From Mycobacteriales bacterium (GTDB lineage: Bacteria; Actinomycetota; Actinomycetes; Mycobacteriales; SCTD01), in contig JAUJOY010000001.1 in NCBI GenBank assembly GCA_030447385.1, positions 193,993 through 257,992 of the forward strand: a DNA stretch of 64,000 nt, written 5' to 3'. The first letter of the stretch is position 1. The number at the start of each line of letters is the position of its first letter. This document shows, one piece after another, positions 1 to 38,959 of the stretch. Under the pieces are notes generated by a model. It ran no database searches. It was not told where the DNA came from and worked only from the letters and a program-made list of their open reading frames with translations. Both the position numbers and the translations under genes were made by a program.

Positions 1-870
1 ACCTGTACGGGCTGGAGCCAGGGCGAACTGGCAGGTCGGCGCGAGGATTTCGTCGACCGGCCGCTGGCCGGCGACCACGCGGCACTGGCGAGCCGGACGG
101 CGATGCTGACCCGCCCGGACTACCTCGACGTCTCGTGCACGGGCAGCTACTCCCCGAACCGATGCAACGCACCGGTCGGCGACGCAACGCCTGGTTCGAC
201 AACTACCTGCAGCGCATCGTCAGCCGTGACGCCCGCGACGTGAGTCGGCTCGCCCACCTGGACCGGTCACGACGTCGATTAGGTTGCTCTCGGCGAACAA
301 CGCCGGTGAGCTCGTCAAGGCGCGGCCGGCAGCCGGGGCCGGCATCCTCGAGACCAGCCTGTTCGGGTACCTGGACCTTCTCCAGACCCTCTACCTGATC
401 CATCAGATCCCCGCGGGCAACAACCTGACCGGTCGCGACCGGCCGGGCCAAGGTGGCCTTGCTCGACACCGGCCTGTCGGCCCGGCTGAACAACCCTCAC
501 CCCGGCGGCGATGTCACCGGGTGTGGTGAGCGACGCTGCTGGCGACCTGTTCGAGGCGTTCGTCGCCGGCGAGTTGCTTCGTCAGCTCGCGTGGTCGGAC
601 GCCGACGCGAGCCTGTTCCACCTCCGCGACCGCGACGGCCGCGAGGTCGACCTTCGTCCTGGAAGACGCCGATCGCCACGTCGCAGGCATCGAGGTCAAG
701 GCCTCCAGTGCTGTGCGCAGCGACGACTTCAAGGGTCTGATGTTCCTGCGCGACAAGCTCGGCGGTCGCTTCACGATCGGCGTTGTGCTGTACACCGGTA
801 TTAACGCCTTGCCCTTCGAGATCGGCTGTGGGCCCTGCCGTACTCGGCCCTTGTGGGCCGCCTCGCCCTT
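1..870 (+). pseudogene. DUF4143/AAA ATPase, C-terminal part, broken
   Basis: This is the C-terminal part of an ATP-binding protein of the DUF4143 family. The protein resumes in different frames: frame 1 to about 165, frame 3 to about 280, frame 2 to about 440, frame 3 to about 505, frame 1 to about 652, frame 2 to about 817, then frame 3. Joined, the pieces give recognisable DUF4143 text: RRRNAWFDNYLQR (about 175-215), then GELVKARPAA and SLFGYLDLLQTLYLI, then GDLFEAFVAGELLRQL (about 540-585). A PD-(D/E)XK-like core follows, REVDL then GIEVKAS (about 640-705). The N-terminal P-loop would lie left of the window. Six frame changes mean no full-length product. Such ATPases are common on actinobacterial mobile elements, which fits the relaxase and att fragment nearby. 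The family call is fairly sure; the function of the intact protein is not known to me. Confidence 0.8.
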
Positions 871-931
871 GAGCGCCGGCTGGCTCACCGGTCGAGGCTT
901 CGTGGCCGTGCGCGGAGGGTTGCTCGGGCAG

Positions 932-1268
932 TCAGCTGTGGCTGCGGTCCTCGGCCGTGAGCCGGTCATACCTGCCAGAGCCCTTGTCGCCGAGCGCACG
1001 CCCGATGGCGATGCCGGGGGTGCTGACGACGCTGTGGCCGGCCCGGACGGCCAGCGTGTCGCCGACGGCTCGGAAAAGCTGGCCACCCATCGCGTTGGCG
1101 ACAAACTCCTGCCGGCTGGCGGTGATGTAGGCGTCGAGGTCGTTGCTGTCGATGCGGATGTGCTTGCCGAGCTTGATGACGGCGATGCGCCGTTCGGCAC
1201 GCAACCGACGGATGAAGCGGGACGGTGGTGCCGAGGCGTTCGGCGGCCTGGTCGACGGTGAGCAGCAT
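932..1268 (-). pseudogene. excisionase-like helix-turn-helix protein, one frameshift
   Basis: This is a small DNA-binding protein of the excisionase/MerR-like HTH_17 type. The N-terminus (MLLTVDQAAERLGTT) starts at ATG 1268 and is the usual recognition-helix segment. The continuation RFIRRLRAERRIAVIKLGKHIRI and DLDAYITASR lies in another frame down to the stop at 932. One extra C in the GTCCCGC run near 1220 explains the break. Such proteins act as recombination directionality factors or small regulators on integrative elements. The gene lies downstream of the relaxase, where excisionase genes of actinobacterial ICEs often sit. The indel could be real decay or a sequencing error. Confidence 0.7.
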
Positions 1269-1531: not shown

Positions 1532-4500
1532 TCACCGGCTCAGACCTTCGCCGAAATCGCGCTCTGCTCCCCGGTAGGGCTTGCGCCCGGCCAGCAGGTC
1601 GACAGGTCCTGCCAGCTCACCGGGGCCGGCCGGGGCCGGGCCAGTGCCGCCGGAGCGTGTCGGGTCCCATCCGTCCGGGCGTGCGCGGTGCGGTGCTGCC
1701 ACGTCGCTGGCCAGGCGCTGCCGGGTGTGGTGGTCGACCTGGCGGGTGAGCCGGTCGATCTCGGCGTCCAGGGTGGCCAGGGTCGGCTCGGTCTGCCGCA
1801 GCTGCTGCTCGCCGCTGGTGATCGTGTCGGTGAGGGCGCGGCGGCGACTACGTGCCCATCGGGGCGCCGTTTCGAGGTCCGCGCGGGTCTGGCGCAGGCT
1901 GCAGTGCAGCCTGTCGCGGTCGGCGCGCAGCCGCTCGCGTTCGGCCTGGCACTGCGTGGAGCTGCCGGAGGGCACGGGCGTGTTCGGTGGGCAGCGGCCG
2001 GGTCTGCCGGCGCTGCACCTTCTCTGCGGCCCGCTCGGCCGCGCGCTCGCGCCTGACGGGCGGTCTGCGCGGCCTGGGCGCGGGCGTGGTCGAGCGCGGT
2101 GTGGGCGGCGTCCTGCGCGCGCTGCGCGCGAGCGCGGCCTCGAGCACTCGCACCGCCTGCTCCTGCGGGTCGTCGACCGCCCCCGGCGGCCGCGTGTGCG
2201 GCTGGCCGTGGCCGTGGTGGTCGTCGTCGGTGCTGGGGTCGGGGGTGATGTAGGCGTGGTTGCCGTGCCGGCCGCGGGTCATCGCGACGTACAGGTGCTC
2301 GCGGTCCATCCCGGGCCGGACCAGCACGACCCCCACGTCGGCGGTGGCGCCTTGGGCGGCGTCGATCGTGGAGGCCCAGCCGTACTCGGCGTGCTCAGCC
2401 AGATAGGCGGCGGGCAGCACGGTCCGGCCCCGTCCGGTGAGGTCTTCCACGATCAGGCCGTCCTGCGGTCCGGGGCCGAGGACCTGGAAGCGGTCGCCGT
2501 TGCGGACATGCCCGTCCCCGACAGTCAGCCGGCGGTCGTTGCGCCGGGCCCGGAGCACATCGCCGGCCTGCCAGTCCCGGCCCCCGGCCACGGTGACCGG
2601 CCCGGCGACCTCACCCGCGGCCACAGCGGCTGCGCGGGCGCGCTGGTTGAGCGCGTCCACGTCCAGCCGGGTCCGGGCCAGCATCAACGCGTCCTGCCCG
2701 TCTGCGCGCGCAACAGCCCAGTGCGCGAAGACGCCGTCCAGGGCGGCGTCGCCGTCCGGGCAGGGGTGCAGCCGGCCGACGGTGCGGTAGGCGTCGAGCG
2801 CCTCCGCCTTGCCGTGACGCAGCGCGAGGGAAGCTTGGCCTTCCCACGGCTGGCTGAACCGGTGGATCTGGTCGAGCTCGACGCCATGCCCGGCGCGGGC
2901 GAGGGCGGCGAGCATCCCGCCCGGTCCGCTGACCACCCCGATCTGCGCTGGGTCCCCGACCAGCACCACCTTCGCCCCCACCCGGGCGGCCGCAGTGATC
3001 AGCGGGTCGAGATCCAGGGTGCTGGCCATCGATGCCTCGTCGACGATCACCACAGTCCGGCCGTCCAGCTCCGACTGCGCCGGCGTGTCTGCTGGGGTGC
3101 GGTTTTGGGTGTACAGCCACTTGGCCAGCGTGTCGGTGGTTTCGCCAGTGGCGGTGGCGAGCTCGGCGGCGGCCCGGGCTGACGGCGCCAGCCCGACCAC
3201 CCGGTACCCGGCGTCCTGCCAGGCCCGGGCAGCGGCACCCAACGTGCTGGTCTTGCCCGCCCCAGCCGGCGCGGTCAGCACCGACACCAAGTCCCCACCC
3301 CCGGCCAGGCGCAGCACCGCCAAGCGCTGGCTCGCGTCCAGCCCTCCGTCGCGACCGGCCGGCATCAGCGCGGTGAGCGTGACCTGCCCGTACCCGCCAC
3401 GCCGGCCGCGGGCGGCAAGGTCCAGGATGCGGGCCTCGACGGCCAGGACTTGCACGGTGGCGTAGCGGGCATCTGAGGCCCGGGGCGTCACCCCGACGCT
3501 CTGCAGGCCGATCGGGACCGCGTCGTCCAGGCCGAGGGCGAGGCCGGTGAGCTGCTCGACCCGCGCGACCACCTCACCCGCGGTCAAGCCGGCAGTCGGT
3601 AGGAGGGCGGCGACCTGCCCTGCGACGTCGGCGCGGGAGAACACCGCCCGCCGCGTCCCCGCCCCCTGCAACGCGGCAGCCGCCACCCCCGCGTCCGGCA
3701 CTTGGCCGGGGTCGGCGCCGGTGCCCGCGGGCAAGACTCCCGCGGCCGGTTGCGGTTCGCTCCGGTCAACGTGGGGCGGGACCGGTCCGGCCGGTCGGGC
3801 AAGACTCGTCTCGCCGGCTGGGTCGGTGGGCAAGACTCGCTGCTCGTGCTCGGCGCGCTCCGGGGGCATCTGCAGCCGCACCGCATGCCGGAGCCGGTCC
3901 GGGGTCCAGCCGAGGTGGGCGGCCTCGGCCGTCCAGCTCGCATGCAACGCCGACAGCTCGGGGTGCTGCTTGCGGGCGCGGGTCTTGAGCACCGCCGTCT
4001 TGACCACCCCGGCTCGCTCCGAGGAGCTGAGGGTGCGGCCGAGGAGCTTTTCGTACTCGGCAATCTTCGTACCGGCCTCAGCATCAATACTGGCGGTGCG
4101 CTTGCTCCACAGTCTTAGCAGCACATCGGGCACTCCGGCAATATCTGCCTGCCCGTTTTCGTTCACCTCCCGGAAAGCAACGCCGAGGCGGTGGTGCATT
4201 TCGTTGCGCAACGCGGCCTGGTAGATCATTCCGGCGCTCTTCTTGTGATGGAACAGCTCCGTGGCGTCCAGGGTGCGCCACCGGCCGTCCTCGCAGCGGA
4301 CCTTGTTCAGGACAAGGGCGTGGGTGTGCAGCTGCGGGTCCCCGGCCCGGCTGCTGCGATGGTCGAACACCGCCGCCACCAGCCCGGCCGAGCCGACCTG
4401 CTCGGTCCCGTCCGTCCCGCGCCGGGACAGCCCCGCATGGGTGTCCAGGTAGGCCAGGCCGGCGCGGACCGCGGCGCGGTGCGCCGCCATCGCCTCCGCC

Positions 4501-4823
4501 GCCGTCGCCCGATCACCCAGCGCCCACAGGGCACTGACGCTCTTGGGCGCCGAGAACGTCAGGTCGAACCCGGTCACCCCGTCGGTCCGCCAGGCCCGCC
4601 CCAGCCGGCTGCCGGCGCTCGGGTGTAGGCCGCGAGCGAACAGTGCCTCCAGCTCCCCCTCACTCACCACAGCCCCCGGCGACAGCCCGAGCTGCTCGAG
4701 CCCCCGGCCGTGCCAGCGCCCCGGCGCCTCACCCACCCCCGCGTAGTACTCGGAGGCCTGGCAGGCCACCCCGTCGGTGTAGTACCGCCAGGAGGAGGTG
4801 CCGATCTTCGCCGAGCTCAACAC
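1532..4823 (-). pseudogene. MobF-family relaxase/helicase (TraA/TrwC-like), one frameshift
   Basis: This is a conjugative relaxase that would nick oriT and unwind the transferred strand. The chosen start is GTG 4823 (VLSSAKIG), because TrwC-like proteins begin just before this motif and the open frame further upstream has no family similarity. Catalytic tyrosines lie in RYYTDG (residues 13-18) and EYYAG. The three-His HUH site is DHRSSR plus PQLHTHALV (His155, 166, 168). The helicase has Walker A APAGAGKTST (about 518-527) and Walker B VVIVDEAS (about 591-598), and a late motif YVAMTRGRHG near 2270-2300. The frame is open to about 1950, where one extra C moves the charged, probably coiled-coil tail (QAERERLRADRDRL onward) into another frame ending at 1532. 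The relaxase and helicase domains are intact, so a shortened active protein is possible. Confidence 0.88.
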
Positions 4824-4869
4824 CGCCCCGACCCCCTCGGCAACCCGGCAACCAGACCGCGCCACCGTA

Positions 4870-5010
4870 CATTCGAAGAATGCACATGTCTGCAGCTCTG
4901 ATGGATTTGCTGGAATCGGGCCAGCGACGGCTGTGAACTTATGGAGAATGGCGGTGGAGAAAGGAGAGTAGCGGCCAGCAACGGTACGCAGAAGCGAATG
5001 TAACAATGTG
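4870..5010. promoter_or_regulatory. AT-richer spacer with palindrome upstream of the relaxase (candidate promoter/oriT)
   Basis: The 220 bp between the relaxase start (4823) and the next gene is visibly less GC-rich than its surroundings. It contains the perfect inverted repeat CATTC-GAA-GAATG at 4870-4882. MobF relaxases commonly act on an oriT near their own gene, so this is the most plausible place in the window for the promoter and possibly the nic region. No nic consensus was recognised, so the oriT part is inference. Confidence 0.3.
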
Positions 5011-5455: not shown

Positions 5456-5929
5456 TCAGCTCGACGTCGATGCTTCGGTCCTCGTCGTCGGAAGCAGCTC
5501 GTCCAGGCGGTTCGCGTCGAGCCGACGGACCCGCCCGGCGGCCAGGTCGTCCACAGCGGCGGCGACGTCGTCGCCGGCAAGAGCCCCACGATCGCGCAGC
5601 ACCCGTAGCACCTCGGCGAGAAGCCGCCCGTCGTCCCGATGCCGGCGCAACTCATCGAGCACGCTCTTGGTTGCCGCCAACGACGTCACCTCGACCCGCA
5701 GAGGACTCGACTGCGCGACCGTCCGCAGGGCACCTGCCTTGATCCAGGCGCGCACCGTCGGTGGCGACACGCCGAGCACGTGAGCCGCCTCACCCACCTT
5801 CGCGCCGTTGTCCCGCTCAGCGACGTGCCCACGGACGGTGTCCAGTGACCGGCGTCGTCCCGCGTCGCGTTCCTGCTCCGCGAGGCGCTGCAGCGCGATC
5901 AGATCCTCGACTACTCCGCCCGCTGACAT
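5456..5929 (-). CDS. HTH protein, possible antitoxin/transcriptional regulator
   Basis: A 157-aa protein. The central region (about residues 40-75, with EAAHVLGVSPPTVRAWIKAG) is a clear excisionase/MerR-like helix-turn-helix. The N-terminus is helical and charged (LIALQRLAEQERDAGRRR). The C-terminal half (DELRRHRDDGRLLAEVLRVL) is helical and may dimerise or bind a partner. Its 3' end overlaps the upstream extension of the next small gene, suggesting translational coupling. If the pair is a toxin-antitoxin module, this would be the DNA-binding antitoxin that autoregulates from the 170-bp spacer at 5930-6100. It could equally be a plain regulator of the element. Confidence 0.65.
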   Translation of the reverse strand: MSAGGVVEDLIALQRLAEQERDAGRRRSLDTVRGHVAERDNGAKVGEAAHVLGVSPPTVRAWIKAGALRTVAQSSPLRVEVTSLAATKSVLDELRRHRDDGRLLAEVLRVLRDRGALAGDDVAAAVDDLAAGRVRRLDANRLDELLPTTRTEASTSS

Positions 5930-6503: not shown

Positions 6504-7421
6504 ATGCACGAGGAGAACGGGTGTCTGCCGGCCGAGCAGGCCGCCGACGTGCAAGCGCTGCTGGTTCTGGGCAACGAGCTGTCGGACGCGGGGGACGAGG
6601 GTGGGGCGGAGCCGTACTTCCGTGCGGCCGCTCGTCTGGGGTCGGCCGCCGGCTCGTTCAATCTGGGGAACTCGCTGATCAAGCAGGGCCGTCCTGTCGA
6701 GGCGGTACCGGCCTTTCTGGAGGCGGCCGCGGCCGGGGACCGCGATGCGCCGCTGAACCTGGGCCTGGCCTATGAGGAGCTCGGGGAGTGGTCGGCAGCC
6801 GAAGCTGCCTACCTGCAAGCGGTCGCAGCTGGTGATCCGCGTGCGCGTGTCTGCCTGGGCGACCTGGTGCGCTGGCACGGGGACCCGGTGGCGGCTGAAG
6901 CGCTGTGGCGGGAGGCGGCGGCGGACGGCGACGGGCTCTGCGCGGGAGCCCTCGCCCGCTGGTACCTGCTCCGAGGCCGGCCGGACGAGGCGGAGCCGCT
7001 GCTGCGTCAGGCTATGCCCGTCGATGACGACGCCCGCTCGGACATGGCGCACCTGATGCGCCGGCGCGGACAGCTCGCGGAGGCGCAGCGGCTGCTGGAG
7101 CTGGGCGTCGCTGAGGGGCACCACGACTCGATGATCAAGCTGGCCCTGCTGTTGGAGGAGGATCTCGGGGACGTGCAGCGCGCGGAGACCGTGCTCCGGG
7201 CGGCCGTGGCGGCAGGCGAGCTGCACGCGCACAACAACTTGGGCACGCTGCTGCGTGAGCGCGGCGCCGTCCTGGAAGCCCAGCAGCAGTTCCGGCTCGG
7301 CGCCCTGGGCGGCGACCGCCGCGCGGCCGACAACCTCGCGCGGCTGCACCGGACGCACCGTCGTCAGCTCAACCGCGCGTACCGGGCACGGGCGCGAGCG
7401 GCCCGGAGGGCGCATGCGTGA
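6504..7421 (+). CDS. Sel1/TPR-like repeat protein
   Basis: A 305-aa soluble protein built of repeated helix pairs of about 33-36 residues with the Sel1/TPR signature A..G....NLG....QG, for example GSAAGSFNLGNSLIKQG, DRDAPLNLGLAYEELG, DPRARVCLGDLVRWHG and ELHAHNNLGTLLRERG. Seven or eight repeats cover residues 15-280, followed by a very basic Arg/Ala-rich tail that could bind nucleic acid or a membrane surface. There is no signal peptide or transmembrane segment. Its stop overlaps the start of the HEAT-repeat gene by 8 bp, so the two are probably co-translated. These repeats mediate protein-protein contacts; the partner is unknown. Confidence 0.8.
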   Translation: MHEENGCLPAEQAADVQALLVLGNELSDAGDEGGAEPYFRAAARLGSAAGSFNLGNSLIKQGRPVEAVPAFLEAAAAGDRDAPLNLGLAYEELGEWSAAEAAYLQAVAAGDPRARVCLGDLVRWHGDPVAAEALWREAAADGDGLCAGALARWYLLRGRPDEAEPLLRQAMPVDDDARSDMAHLMRRRGQLAEAQRLLELGVAEGHHDSMIKLALLLEEDLGDVQRAETVLRAAVAAGELHAHNNLGTLLRERGAVLEAQQQFRLGALGGDRRAADNLARLHRTHRRQLNRAYRARARAARRAHA

Positions 7422-8244
7422 CCACCTGCTCGCCCTCGCGGCATGGACGGACGGGGGGGCGAGGTGGACCGAGGAGCTCTTCGCGGACTACATGACCGCC
7501 GTCCACGCCGTGGTCGACGACGTCGGGCCGGACGCCTGCCTGACCGCGGCGCTGCACGCCTGGGCGAACGAGCCGCCGCCGCTGCAGGCCGTCGCGCTCG
7601 ACCTGCTGGGGGTCCTCGCCGACCGGGATCCTCAACGGCTGCCACTGCTCCTGACCGTGGTGGAGCAAGCAGCCGGCAGCGAGGACGAGAACGTCCGCTG
7701 GGCGGCGGTGAACGCCCTTGACCACGGGGACGATTCTCGAGCCGTCCCGTACCTGGTGAGGCTGGCGCGGGACGAGGACCGGGACATCCGTTGGAAGGCA
7801 GTCGGCGCCCTCCCCCTGCTGCTCCAGGATCCGACACCCGAGCATCCCGCCGTCCAGGCCCTGCTCGATGCGTGCGACGACGACGACCCCGACGTCCGGG
7901 ACTGGGCGGTGTTCGGGCTCGGCGTGCTCCTCGACGTCGACAGCCCTGCAGTGCGGGACGCCCTATCCGCGCGGCTGAATGACGAACAGGCGGACACGGC
8001 CGGAGAGGCAGCCGTGGGCCTGGCCCGTCGACGCGACGCTCGGGTGCTCCCCTTCCTGCTCCGCGAGTTGACGAGCCCCGATGTCGGCAACCTGTACGTC
8101 GAGGCGGCAGCGGAGCTGGGTGAGCCGCTGCTGTTGCCCCTCCTGCAGCAGCTGCAGGTCCAGGGGTGGCAAGAGGATCACGAGCCCAGACCCGGCGTGC
8201 TCAACGAGGCCCTACGCAGCTGTGCGCCAAACGAGGAGCGGTGA
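7414..8244 (+). CDS. HEAT-repeat protein
   Basis: A 276-aa acidic protein starting at ATG 7414 (MRDHLLALAAW) and overlapping the stop of the preceding repeat protein. Residues about 80-240 carry HEAT/PBS-lyase-like repeats: DENVRWAAVNAL, DRDIRWKAVGAL, DPDVRDWAVFGLG and ADTAGEAAVGLARRRD. Each is a helix pair with the conserved D/R positions. There are no catalytic residues or membrane segments. It is probably a scaffold that works with the Sel1/TPR-like protein encoded just upstream. Both lie within about 2 kb of the tRNA-Ser att fragment, so they are likely cargo of the integrated element. No known defence or immunity family was recognised. Confidence 0.75.
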   Translation: MRDHLLALAAWTDGGARWTEELFADYMTAVHAVVDDVGPDACLTAALHAWANEPPPLQAVALDLLGVLADRDPQRLPLLLTVVEQAAGSEDENVRWAAVNALDHGDDSRAVPYLVRLARDEDRDIRWKAVGALPLLLQDPTPEHPAVQALLDACDDDDPDVRDWAVFGLGVLLDVDSPAVRDALSARLNDEQADTAGEAAVGLARRRDARVLPFLLRELTSPDVGNLYVEAAAELGEPLLLPLLQQLQVQGWQEDHEPRPGVLNEALRSCAPNEER

Positions 8245-8457
8245 TCGGCCCGGCCACCGAACTGGCCCTCGGGTAGATATCGCTCCCGCGGGCCGCACTG
8301 TCATGGCTGGTCACGCGGTGGTCACAGAAACGTCGGTAAAGGCCGGTCACCGGCGGATCGTCTCGGACGCGACGACGGGAGGAAAAGTGGTCCTGACCTG
8401 CGGAAATACAGCACTGTGAGTCACTTGCGGTCAGCGACGGCTCACCAGCTTGCGGGA

Positions 8458-8481
8458 GTTCAAATCCCACCGCCACCGCCA
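8458..8481 (+). other. 3' fragment of tRNA-Ser (probable attR core)
   Basis: The 24 bases match the 3' end of an actinobacterial tRNA-Ser: T-loop GTTCAAATC, T-stem 3' strand, acceptor 3' strand CGCCACC, discriminator G and CCA. Just upstream the sequence no longer pairs with the T-stem, and no anticodon or acceptor 5' half exists. This is what remains at the far side of an element integrated into a tRNA 3' end. The orientation (CCA to the right) puts the intact tRNA-Ser left of the window. Confidence 0.7.
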
Positions 8482-8482
8482 G

Positions 8483-9750
8483 TGTGATGTCTCGGGACAC
8501 CGTGCACAGGTGTCTCGAGACATCCTTCACGGCTTGGGTTGGGGTTGGTAGTCCAGGCTGGTGTCGAGGTGGAGTTCGCGTAGGAGGCTCGCCGGTGTCG
8601 GTCAAGACTCGGATCTGCAGGTCCTTGACGAGTACAAGGACCCGTCTGCCGGCGTGACGGCGGCCGATGCCGATGTGGTGCAGGCGGCTGTTGTGCCGCA
8701 GCGTGACGACGCCGGTGGCGTCGAGGCGGTCCTGACGGACGCGGAAGTGGCCGGTGTCGATGGGGGTGCCGGTTGGAACTGCTGCGGGGCGGGCGGCGAA
8801 GGCCTCGGCGGGGGTGCGGCGGCCGATCGCGCGATGCGGCCGGTGGTTGTTGTAGTAGCGGACGAAGGTGTCGAGCTGTCGCTGCAGTGAGGTTAGTGAC
8901 CGGGCGGCCGGTCGGGTCGCCAGGTGCTTTTTCAGCGTTTGGTGGAAGCGCTCGACCTTGCCGCAGGTCTGCGGGTGGTAGGGGCGGCTGTGGCTGAAGC
9001 CAATCCCGTGGCTGGCCAGGCCAGCTCGATCGCGACGCGGCCGCCGCCGCGGTAGGAGCCGGTGAACACCGCGCCGTTGTCGGACAGCATCGAAGTTGGG
9101 AGGCCGTGCATGGCAGCGGCTTTGCGGAAGCTGGTGACGACGTCGGCGGCTTTGAACACTCGGCGGGCGTGGCTGGCTACGCACAGCCGGGAGTGGTCAT
9201 CGATGACGTTGAGGACCTCGACGTCGGTGCCGTCGGCGAGCTGGACGTGGGTGATGTCGAGCTGCCAACGCTCGTTGGGCTGCTCGGCTTGAAAACGCAC
9301 GAAGGAGCTCTTGGGCCGTCTGTGCGGCTGCGGGGGACGAAGCCGCGCTTGGTGAGCACTCGCGAGATCGTCGAGGGCGCCGGCGCCTGACCGTTCCGGC
9401 GACGCAGGTGCTCGGCGATGGTCTGCGGGCCGTTGTCATGTCCGGCCGCGTGGAGTTCCTTACGGACCCTGACGATCTCGTCCTCGACGCAGTCGGGGAT
9501 CCGGTTCGGGCTTGACCGCGGCCGTCGGGAACGGGGCTCGAGCCCGGCCTGTCCCTCAGCCAGGTACCGCTGCACGAGCGTGATCACCCAACGGCGGGAC
9601 ACGCCGTAGTCGCGGGCGACCTCGCTCTTGCTGCGGCCCTCGACCAGGACCGCCGTGACGACCAGCTGCGCCATACCCCTCACTCACCCCAGATGCTCGG
9701 GTGTGAACGATGTCCCGCGACAGGTGTGAACGATGTCCTGGTCTCAGACA
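8483..9750 (-). mobile_element. IS481-family insertion sequence, 1268 bp
   Basis: The element starts TGT and ends ACA, as IS481-family members do. Both ends carry related repeats: GTGTCTCGAGACATCCTTCAC at the left and, reading inward from the right, the similar TGTCGCGGGACATCGTTCAC. It is flanked by the 16-bp direct repeat CCACCGCCACCGCCAG at 8467-8482 and 9751-9766, close to the upper size known for IS481 target duplications. It landed immediately after the CCA of the tRNA-Ser fragment. Its single transposase gene is frameshifted. Confidence 0.85.
8527..9683 (-). pseudogene. IS481-family DDE transposase, multiple frameshifts
   Basis: The N-terminal part (starting at GTG 9683 or ATG 9674) has the two helix-turn-helix segments KSEVARDYGVSRRWVITLVQRY and a GPQTIAEHLRRR region. 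Near 9310 the protein jumps to a frame with WQLDITHVQLADG (first catalytic Asp) and MLSDNGAVFTGSYRGG (second Asp). Near 9015 it changes to a frame with YHPQTCGKVERFHQTLKKHLA (catalytic Glu) and YYNNHRPHRAIGRRTP. Another shift near 8590 restores a family-like end (LLRELHLDTSLDYQPQPKP) with the stop at 8527-8529. At least three indels make it inactive unless some are sequencing errors. Confidence 0.85.
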
Positions 9751-9801
9751 CCACCGCCACCGCCAGCCCGGCCAGTAGAGCCACAGGTCAGACGCTGCGC
9801 A

Positions 9802-9833
9802 AGCCCCGGTCCACGATCCTGGACGGGGGCTTT
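9802..9833 (+). terminator. rho-independent terminator, probably of the original tRNA-Ser
   Basis: AGCCCCGGTCCA at 9802-9813 pairs with TGGACGGGGGCT at 9820-9831 (11 of 12 pairs) around the loop CGATCC, followed by TTT. If the IS is removed, it lies about 35 bp after the tRNA-Ser CCA end in the same orientation, the usual place for a tRNA terminator. This supports the chromosome side being to the right of the att fragment. Confidence 0.7.
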
Positions 9834-37323: not shown

Positions 37324-38959
37324 TTACTTCGACCTGAAGAAGTCCCTGGCTGGAGATTGAGGCCTGGCGGCTTTTGCGTGCCACGCCTCTTGGCGGTCTG
37401 AGTGGCGAGATCATGTTCGTGGCGGGTCGGGCGAGCGTGGGGAGCGGCTTGTGCTGCGGACACGAGCGGTGGATGTGAGCTTGTGGCAGGCGGTGTTGCC
37501 GCCGGAGGTGCTGCGGCTGCCGGACGAACTGGCCCGGGTGGACGCGCTGCTGGATGACCCGGTGTTCTTCGCGCCGTTCGTGCCGTTCTTCGACCCGCGG
37601 GTGGGCCGGCCGTCCACGCCGATGGAGGTCTACCTGCGGATGATGTTCTTGAAGTTCCGCGGCTGGGCTACGAGCTGTGCCGGGAGGTCGGTGACTCGAT
37701 CACCTGGCGCAGGTTCTGTCGGATCCCGCTCGCGATGGGAAGGTTCCGCACCCGACGACGTTGATGAAGCTCACCACTCGCTGCGGCACGGCCGCGGTCG
37801 ACGGCTGCAACGAGGCGCTGCTGGCGAAGGCGGCCCAGGCCGGCTGCGCACCAACCGGCTGCGGGCCGACACCACGGTGGTCCCCGCGGATGTGGCCTAC
37901 CCGACCGATTCGGGGTTGCTGGCCAAAGCGATCCGGCGGATCGCGGCCACCGGCCGGCGGATCCAGGCTGCCGGTGGGGCAACGCGCACGTCGGTGCGGG
38001 ACCGCAGCCGGGCGGCTGGGAAGCGGGCGCACGGGATCGCCGCGAAACTGCGGATGCGCAGCGCGCAAGGCAAGGACGAAGTCCACGCGGTCGTGAAGCG
38101 GATCACCGGTGAGCTCGCGCAGTTGGCGGTACGCGCCGCCGATGGCGCCGAAGGCTGCTGAGCAACGCCCGGCGCGCGCTGCGAAGGACGCAGACCAAGG
38201 CGCAGGCGCTGGCCGCGGCCGGTGTTCAGGACGCCGCTGCGGGTCGACGTCGCGGCGGTCGGTTGCGGCGGTCAACGTCAACGACCTGACCGCTTTGCTG
38301 CAGGCGACCCGTCAGGTCGCCGCGCAGACCCGGCAGCGCGTCGCCGGTGTCACCCCGGCCGGGGCGTCCCGCGGGTCAGCCTGCACGAGCGTGACGCCCG
38401 GCCGATCGCCAAGGGACGGCTCGGCAGGCCAGTGGAGTTCGGCTACAAGGCTCAGGTGCTCGACAACGACGACGGTGTCGTGCTCGACCACAACGTCGAG
38501 CAGGGCAACCCGCCGGCTGGCTCCGGCGGTCGAGCGGGTCAAGCGCCGCACCGGACGAAAGCCCCGGACCGTGACCGCTGACCGTGGCTACGGTGAGAAG
38601 AGCGTCGAGGACGAGCTGCACGAGGCCGGGGTGCGCCACGTCGTCATCCCCGCAAGGGCAAGCTAGGCAAGGCCCGGCAAGCCGAGGAACGACGGCCGGC
38701 GTTCCGCAGGACGATCAAGTGGAGAACCGGCAGCGAGGGCCGGATCAGCAGCCTCAAACGCGGCTACGGCTGGGACCGCACCCGCCTGGACGGCACCGAA
38801 GGAGCCCGGATCTGGACCGGACAGGCCGTCCTGGCGCACAACCTGGTCAAGATCGGAGCCCTGGCCGGCTAACGGAACGGAGTTGGGAGATCAACAAGTC
38901 CCAGTCCCGGACGCCGCCAGGCCTCAATCACAAGCCAGGGACTTCTTCAGTCGAAGTAA
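37324..38959 (+). mobile_element. insertion sequence (ISNCY/IS1182-like), 1636 bp, with GCTAG target duplication
   Basis: The ends are long inverted repeats: TTACTTCGACCTGAAGAAGT at the left and, reading inward from the right, TTACTTCGACTGAAGAAGTC, continuing in parallel through CCCTGGCT and GATTGAGGCCTGGCGGC for about 50 bp with few mismatches. The direct repeat GCTAG lies at 37319-37323 and 38960-38964. The well-preserved ends contrast with the broken transposase. Confidence 0.9.
37451..38872 (+). pseudogene. DDE transposase of the IS, multiple frameshifts
   Basis: The N-terminal DUF772-type region is intact from GTG 37451: VDVSLWQAVLPPEVLRLPDE, DPRVGRPSTPMEVYLRMMFLKFR. It then shifts frame near 37660 (YELCREVGDSITWRRFCRIP and PTTLMKLTTRCG are in another frame), returns near 37850 (TNRLRADTTVVPADVAYPTDSG), and breaks again near 38150, 38250, 38345, 38510 and 38655. 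Later pieces still show the family: GRLGRPVEFGYKAQVLDND, RTVTADRGYGEKSVEDELHE and RISSLKRGYGWDRTRLDGTEG, ending at the TAA at 38870. Family assignment within IS5-superfamily-like elements is tentative; inactivity is clear as read. Confidence 0.82.

Follow-up and report, generated by a model that had tools for sequence, protein, structure and literature searches.

A decayed IS481-family insertion sequence and an integrated mobilizable element appear to share one tRNA-Ser(CGA) 3' end, with evidence for an IS481 lineage that targets tRNA ends

Introduction

Simple insertion sequences (ISs) are mostly thought to pick their targets loosely, and the target duplications of the IS481 family are mostly 6 bp, within a reported range of 2-15 bp. 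The locus described here raises the question of why an IS481-type element should abut the 3' end of a tRNA gene that has no 5' half. The window, by which we mean the whole stretch of 64,000 nucleotides that was analysed (C9:193993-257992, C9 being a contig of its own genome, G000), carries this tRNA-Ser fragment near an IS that the original prediction had treated as incidental. We conclude, with a probability of roughly 0.9, that two mobile elements used the 3' end of tRNA-Ser(CGA) as a common landing site: an element of ~10 kb and a decayed IS481 of a kind that targets tRNA ends. The features of the window on which this conclusion draws are collected in Table 1.

Table 1. Positions of the integrated element, the IS and their flanks in the window.
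Feature	Position	Strand	Remark
Excisionase-like gene region	932-1204	-	61 nt repeated at contig end left of N gap
TrwC-type relaxase/helicase of the element	1848-5006	-	Pfam TrwC 5.9e-83, AAA_30 4e-54
MerR/HTH_17 protein of the element	5456-5929	-	Pfam
TPR and HEAT-repeat cargo ORFs of the element	6504-8244	+	
Arm-like repeat GTGGTCACAG near attR	8318-8327	+	
tRNA-Ser(CGA) 3' end, 24 nt, GTTCAAATCCCACCGCCACCGCCA	8458-8481	+	attR core and IS target
Target duplication CCACCGCCACCGCCAG, 16 bp, left copy	8467-8482	.	
tRNA-targeting IS481-family IS, 1268 bp	8483-9750	- (transposase)	TGT...ACA ends
16-bp hairpin, tRNA-proximal IS end	8486-8524	+	fold z = -5.1
Transposase C-terminal part (rve_3 and C-terminal domain, third frame)	8540-9184	-	open frame continues to 8201
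Transposase middle part (DDE core, second frame)	8932-9300	-	
Transposase N-terminal part (HTH)	9177-9683	-	
Target duplication CCACCGCCACCGCCAG, 16 bp, right copy	9751-9766	.	
Hairpin downstream of the original tRNA-Ser site	9801-9833	+	fold z = -2.8

Results

The tRNA-Ser fragment at 8458-8481 had been predicted to be a 24-nt 3' end without a 5' half, which was right, as ARAGORN reported no tRNA there. When the window was searched with the 3' 21 nt of this core, allowing up to three mismatches, matches were found only at 8461 and in the duplicated 15-nt end at 9751, and the same search on dinucleotide shuffles gave 0.00 matches. A 28-nt tRNA-Ser end has a single further copy in the whole genome (C9:192477-192504), with which an intact tRNA-Ser(CGA) gene (C9:192415-192504) ends, 1,488 bp left of window base 1. 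Between this gene and the window lies a gene for a tyrosine integrase of 396 aa (C9:192597-193787; Phage_integrase, 2.7e-24). The intact tRNA-Ser and the integrase that had been expected left of the window are therefore present, 0.2-1.6 kb from base 1 and with an identical 24-nt core, and together with the core repeat they bear out the earlier reading of the fragment as attR.

The two cores are 9,969 bp apart, with the integrase adjoining the intact tRNA and the repeat of the tRNA 3'-end core at the far side. As judged from its gene order (tRNA, integrase, xis, relaxase, cargo, attR), the segment is a ~10-kb mobilizable element with a TrwC relaxase, integrated at tRNA-Ser. It shares the integrase by an intact tRNA, the attR core repeat and the relaxase with known tRNA-integrated mobilizable elements of the tyrosine integrase type, and is ordinary among them apart from an attR that is occupied by an IS. 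The sequence GTGGTCACAG has two further copies beside the integrase (L002 1596-1616), so that repeats are found at both ends of the element, and is a candidate arm-type repeat. In G004, G006 and G008, among several species of the genus, integrases 75-93% identical adjoin tRNA-Ser(CGA). Comparison within the genus indicates that this locus is an integration hot spot.

The region left of attR had been described as mobile, and the relaxase and the excisionase-like gene fit that description; the DUF4143 remnant that had been counted with them is a doubtful sign of mobility, as it lies at an assembly gap and is absent in G004. The gap is a one-base N (C9:193992) directly left of the window, on either side of which 61 nt of the excisionase region are repeated exactly, and the remnant (window 1-1106 stretch) begins at this N. 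In G004, where the integrase is 93% identical, xis and int are contiguous and no DUF4143 remnant lies between them; in G006, a segment resembling window 987-1101 sits between xis and int. The remnant may thus have been misplaced by assembly, or may be a real insertion.

The IS that follows the attR core has its ends at 8483 (TGTGATGTC...) and 9750 (...AGACA), with inverted termini TGTGATGTC.../TGTCTGAGACC..., and the duplication that flanks it, CCACCGCCACCGCCAG, is exactly the tRNA-Ser 3' end plus one base. The TTC of the T-loop begins 24 nt before the IS. The transposase gene is broken by two frameshifts that leave its pieces in three frames, although matches to Pfam rve_3 (4e-20) and HTH_32 (4e-13) are retained. 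Because its own transposase is broken, this copy is unable to move by itself. Two intact relatives, L083 and L107, score 243.6 and 246.2 bits against the IS481 model NF033577, above its cut-off of 224 bits, and the score of the window's C-terminal piece, 86 bits, is low because the gene is broken. By the curated cut-off, the transposase is assigned to the IS481 family.

To place this insertion among others, we used a survey in which the query was the transposase alone, with no reference to tRNAs, and which covered 84,980 species genomes. The best 80 loci came from Actinomycetota, Chloroflexota, Acidobacteriota, Dormiibacterota and others. Sixty-nine of these 80 loci were assayable and comprised 44 with an intact tRNA, 18 with a tRNA 3' fragment, 1 with a tRNA at the other end and 6 with neither ("fragment" and "unassayable" being assigned by regex and eye, with a few degenerate fragments, L110, L112 and L145, and with at least one element, L101/L163, identical and counted twice). 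At all 62 loci with an intact tRNA or a fragment, the tRNA faces the 3' side of the transposase. Among relatives at least 44% identical, 70 of the 78 that were assayable adjoin a tRNA gene or 3' fragment in this same orientation; the remainder, about 8, have no tRNA at the expected end and may be damaged, may have inserted elsewhere or may be a sign of imperfect specificity.

The position of the insertions is as uniform as their orientation. Over 71 junctions, drawn from the loci of the transposase survey and from a graded search within the order, the distance from the first T of TTC to the IS start was 24 nt (43 junctions), 23 nt (26) or 25 nt (2). The IS thus starts 0-2 nt past tRNA position 76, and it makes no difference whether CCA is encoded or not. 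The tRNAs used belong to 13 isotypes and to several phyla, and where the target duplication could be resolved, it mostly measures 15-16 bp. The tRNA remains complete to one side of the IS. Copies within one genome that are at least 99% identical to each other follow the same rule: in Mycobacterium bohemicum, 3/3 lie at tRNA ends, two of them at tRNA-Met and tRNA-Arg and one at a 3' fragment of a Pro-like tRNA, and in M. ahvazicum, 3/3 full copies do so, two at tRNA-Leu and tRNA-Ser and one at a degenerate 3' fragment of a tRNA. A strong hairpin at the tRNA-proximal IS end, like that of the window copy, is found in several relatives as well.

The sole other copy of the window IS in its own genome is partial (C1:8018). 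It too begins 24 nt behind the TTC of a tRNA 3' fragment, here of tRNA-Met, whose intact gene is at C2:26311. The region in question (G000:C1:7974-8540; L048, L080) consists of 29 nt of the tRNA-Met 3' end followed by a rearranged IS copy. This fragment is probably the attR of another element, lost or present. A degenerate pattern for the IS end, searched in 399 genomes of the order, gave three matches only, and 3/3 are at tRNA 3' ends. Two are the window copy and the one at C1:8018; the third, in G009, is an IS-end-like hairpin past an intact tRNA-Ser, at the same spacing and with no transposase. We considered whether it could be a native terminator and disfavour this; the restriction of IS-end matches to tRNAs and the family survey point to an IS relic, a reading that is favoured, short of proof.

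More distant IS481s, used as controls, also came from the graded search, which covered 121 genomes of the order. Elements at least 44% identical again adjoined tRNAs, and the distant IS481s of the order, a second tRNA lineage apart, showed no tRNA adjacency. In four distant controls (L191, L207, L209 and L210), the duplications were 6 bp long and contained CTAG, which is the classic target of IS481, so targets of other kinds are visible to the assay. CTAG was found in these four only, and the lineage of the window IS, with tRNA 3' ends as its target, falls outside the classic CTAG subgroup. All tRNA-abutting rows of the first type fall within one clade of 88 rows (SH-aLRT 94, from a quick search with no mixture model).

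The second lineage at tRNA 3' ends (L171, L173, L174, L186, L197 and L203; 33-36% identity) has the opposite IS end facing the tRNA, 29-30 nt from TTC, with duplications of 15-16 bp where resolvable. A third lineage (L170, L194) is inserted in a palindromic repeat, ATTTCGGTGCGC...GCGCACCGAAAT, with a 15-bp duplication in L194. Transposases of the tRNA lineage have ~100-110 aa after the RPH motif, compared with ~20 aa in the CTAG-type controls. Relatives that are not at tRNAs, such as L170, also have a longer tail after RPH, and the ~100-110-residue tail may serve to bind the target or the IS ends.

The hairpin right of the IS had been called the original terminator, at 9802-9833. A hairpin is indeed present, and its flank aligns with the sequence that follows tRNA-Ser in G014 (CAGGTCAG...GCAAG...GATC...GGGGGC), which supports the view that the flank right of the IS is the native region downstream of tRNA-Ser; the terminator function is less secure, as the T run is short and a consensus terminator scan did not list the hairpin at 9801-9833. 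Use of the G014 flank as proof of an empty site was considered and dropped, the alignment being only partial.

It had further been claimed that the whole sequence to the right looks chromosomal; this proved weak, as the stretch at 9.8-41 kb is absent from the tRNA-Ser locus of relatives. In G007, tRNA-Ser is followed after 0.39 kb by a homologue of window 41133, and in G002 the distance from tRNA-Ser to the counterpart of window 41-49 kb (MFS-dnaX-recR) is 2.4 kb. Across G007, G002, G016 and G009, tRNA-Ser(CGA) leads to MFS, tRNA-Ser(GGA) or the dnaX-recR region, which here starts at 41-46 kb. The cobalamin region at window 9.8-41 kb is therefore extra at this locus, because the tRNA-Ser of relatives leads directly to the 41-49 kb region. 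The tRNA-Ser genes of G007 and G002 are also without the ~10-kb element, but the cobalamin region to its right is missing there too. This region is 91-93% identical to G003, compared with 78-86% for core genes, and the cobalamin biosynthesis region (9800-41100) was possibly moved horizontally. A remnant of an ISNCY-type transposase lies at window 37451-38161, close to the far end of the region.

These comparisons raise the possibility that the ~42.6 kb from tRNA-Ser to window 41133 are one island, or the product of island accretion, with the attR at 8458 internal to it. The junction of tRNA-Ser with the 41-kb region in G007 and G002 and the high identity to G003 speak for such an island; against it, searches of the window and the genome found no second copy of the 24-nt attR core near 41 kb, the sequence that adjoins the IS on its right is similar to what natively follows the tRNA in G014, and cobalamin genes are commonly chromosomal. 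An outer attR near 41 kb was rejected, as no second core copy is found there. We regard such an island or accretion as possible, if doubtful. It concerns the integrated element and not the IS, and is compatible with our conclusion that two mobile elements share the tRNA-Ser landing site.

Discussion

The treatment of the IS481 as incidental was wrong: the position of the IS is dictated by the tRNA 3' end. A single look at the window alone would allow that the IS came to lie beside attR by chance, yet the tRNA adjacency of its relatives at a fixed offset of 23-25 nt and in one orientation, and the location of the other copy in its own genome, likewise at a tRNA end, make this exceedingly improbable. 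The T-arm motif has a background density of only 1.7e-4 per nt on the surveyed loci, therefore chance is excluded for tRNA adjacency, and a query consisting of the transposase alone carries no retrieval bias to tRNAs. It is also very unlikely that the IS inserts broadly and that copies at tRNA ends merely survive because they are harmless. Although the tRNA stays undamaged when an IS enters beyond its 3' end, so that such insertions should be neutral, survival would not yield a 2-nt window of positions or a single orientation, nor would it place 3/3 near-identical, and so recent, copies at tRNAs or their fragments in each of two genomes, and no such bias is seen in other IS481s of the order.

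A different explanation is that the target is a tyrosine integrase or att complex bound at these sites, as has been proposed for XerC and the IS1202 family (PMC10132070). This precedent for protein-guided choice, and the share of tRNA 3' fragments among the targets (about 18/62), such as attR sites would supply, count in its favour, but at 44/62 targets the tRNA gene is intact, with many isotypes represented, and the cores of integrated elements vary among tRNAs whereas the IS offset is always set from the T-loop. We consider this explanation unlikely. Our best reading of the sequence comparisons is that the tRNA-end IS481s are a lineage of DDE ISs for which the conserved T-arm of tRNAs marks a safe place to insert. 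It is likely that a lone DDE transposase, unaided by any helper protein or guide RNA, is specific for the T-arm across tRNAs and attRs, and that this property arose at least twice in IS481.

At the present locus, we propose that the ~10-kb element entered tRNA-Ser(CGA) by tyrosine recombination and that the decayed IS481 came to sit right of the attR core, ahead of the native downstream hairpin. From the position of the insertions, we infer that the transposase, and no other encoded protein, would recognise conserved T-arm DNA (GGTTCRANNCC), that it would cut one and a half turns downstream of the T-arm, and that the staggered cuts would be made 15-16 bp apart across the acceptor 3' strand. 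Fragments at attR would also be targeted, because only the 3' part of the tRNA is needed. Transcription of the tRNA may stop at the hairpin of the IS end, which may also, or instead, be a binding site for the transposase. Alternatively, the IS may already have been at the tRNA and have been pushed behind attR by the incoming integrative element; both orders of arrival leave the same sequence.

Compared with the IS481 family of the Bordetella IS481 type, the tRNA-end lineage has the same single ORF, TGT...ACA ends and length of 1.1-1.3 kb, but classic IS481 makes 6-bp duplications of the CTAG type, whereas those here are 15-16 bp and lie at tRNA ends. Duplications of ~15 bp have been reported for some IS481s in the IS481EU paper, which nowhere mentions tRNA (PMC10045372). 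The IS1202/ISAjo2 family targets dif/pdif, inserting 5 bp from the XerC/dif site with a 5-bp duplication, and no target was found for the IS1202 members with long duplications (PMC10132070). This family resembles the tRNA-end lineage in its lone DDE transposase, its TGT ends and its insertion at a set distance from a conserved site, always in one orientation; it differs in its larger transposase, its dif/pdif target and its 5-bp duplication, compared with the T-arm at 23-25 nt and 15-16 bp here, and the tRNA-end lineage falls outside it. An IS481-family element of Pseudomonas fluorescens SBW25 targets REP sequences with a 4-bp duplication (PMC11708052); it belongs to the same family and likewise uses a repeated target sequence, but the target is REP and the duplication 4 bp.

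Among eukaryotes, the Dada DNA transposons are described as specific for tRNA or snRNA genes (PMC3706591, PMC8869645). As described there, Dada is a eukaryotic superfamily whose members are inserted into multicopy RNA genes, whereas the elements here are bacterial and lie past the tRNA end. Our literature searches, with ISfinder and subscription journals outside their scope, returned no earlier report of tRNA-end targeting by IS481, and such targeting by an IS481 lineage is likely, not certain, to be new.

Our data suggest that a lone transposase can read the tRNA T-arm, a structure that is present in every cell. Targeting of the T-arm would explain how these ISs have spread over Actinomycetota, Chloroflexota, Acidobacteriota and other phyla without killing their hosts. 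It also calls for caution when genomic islands are delimited by tRNA fragments and ISs. If this view is correct, the lineage would offer a compact tool for DNA insertion at tRNA ends and a system in which to test how DDE enzymes choose their targets, and integrative elements and ISs would be direct competitors for one site.
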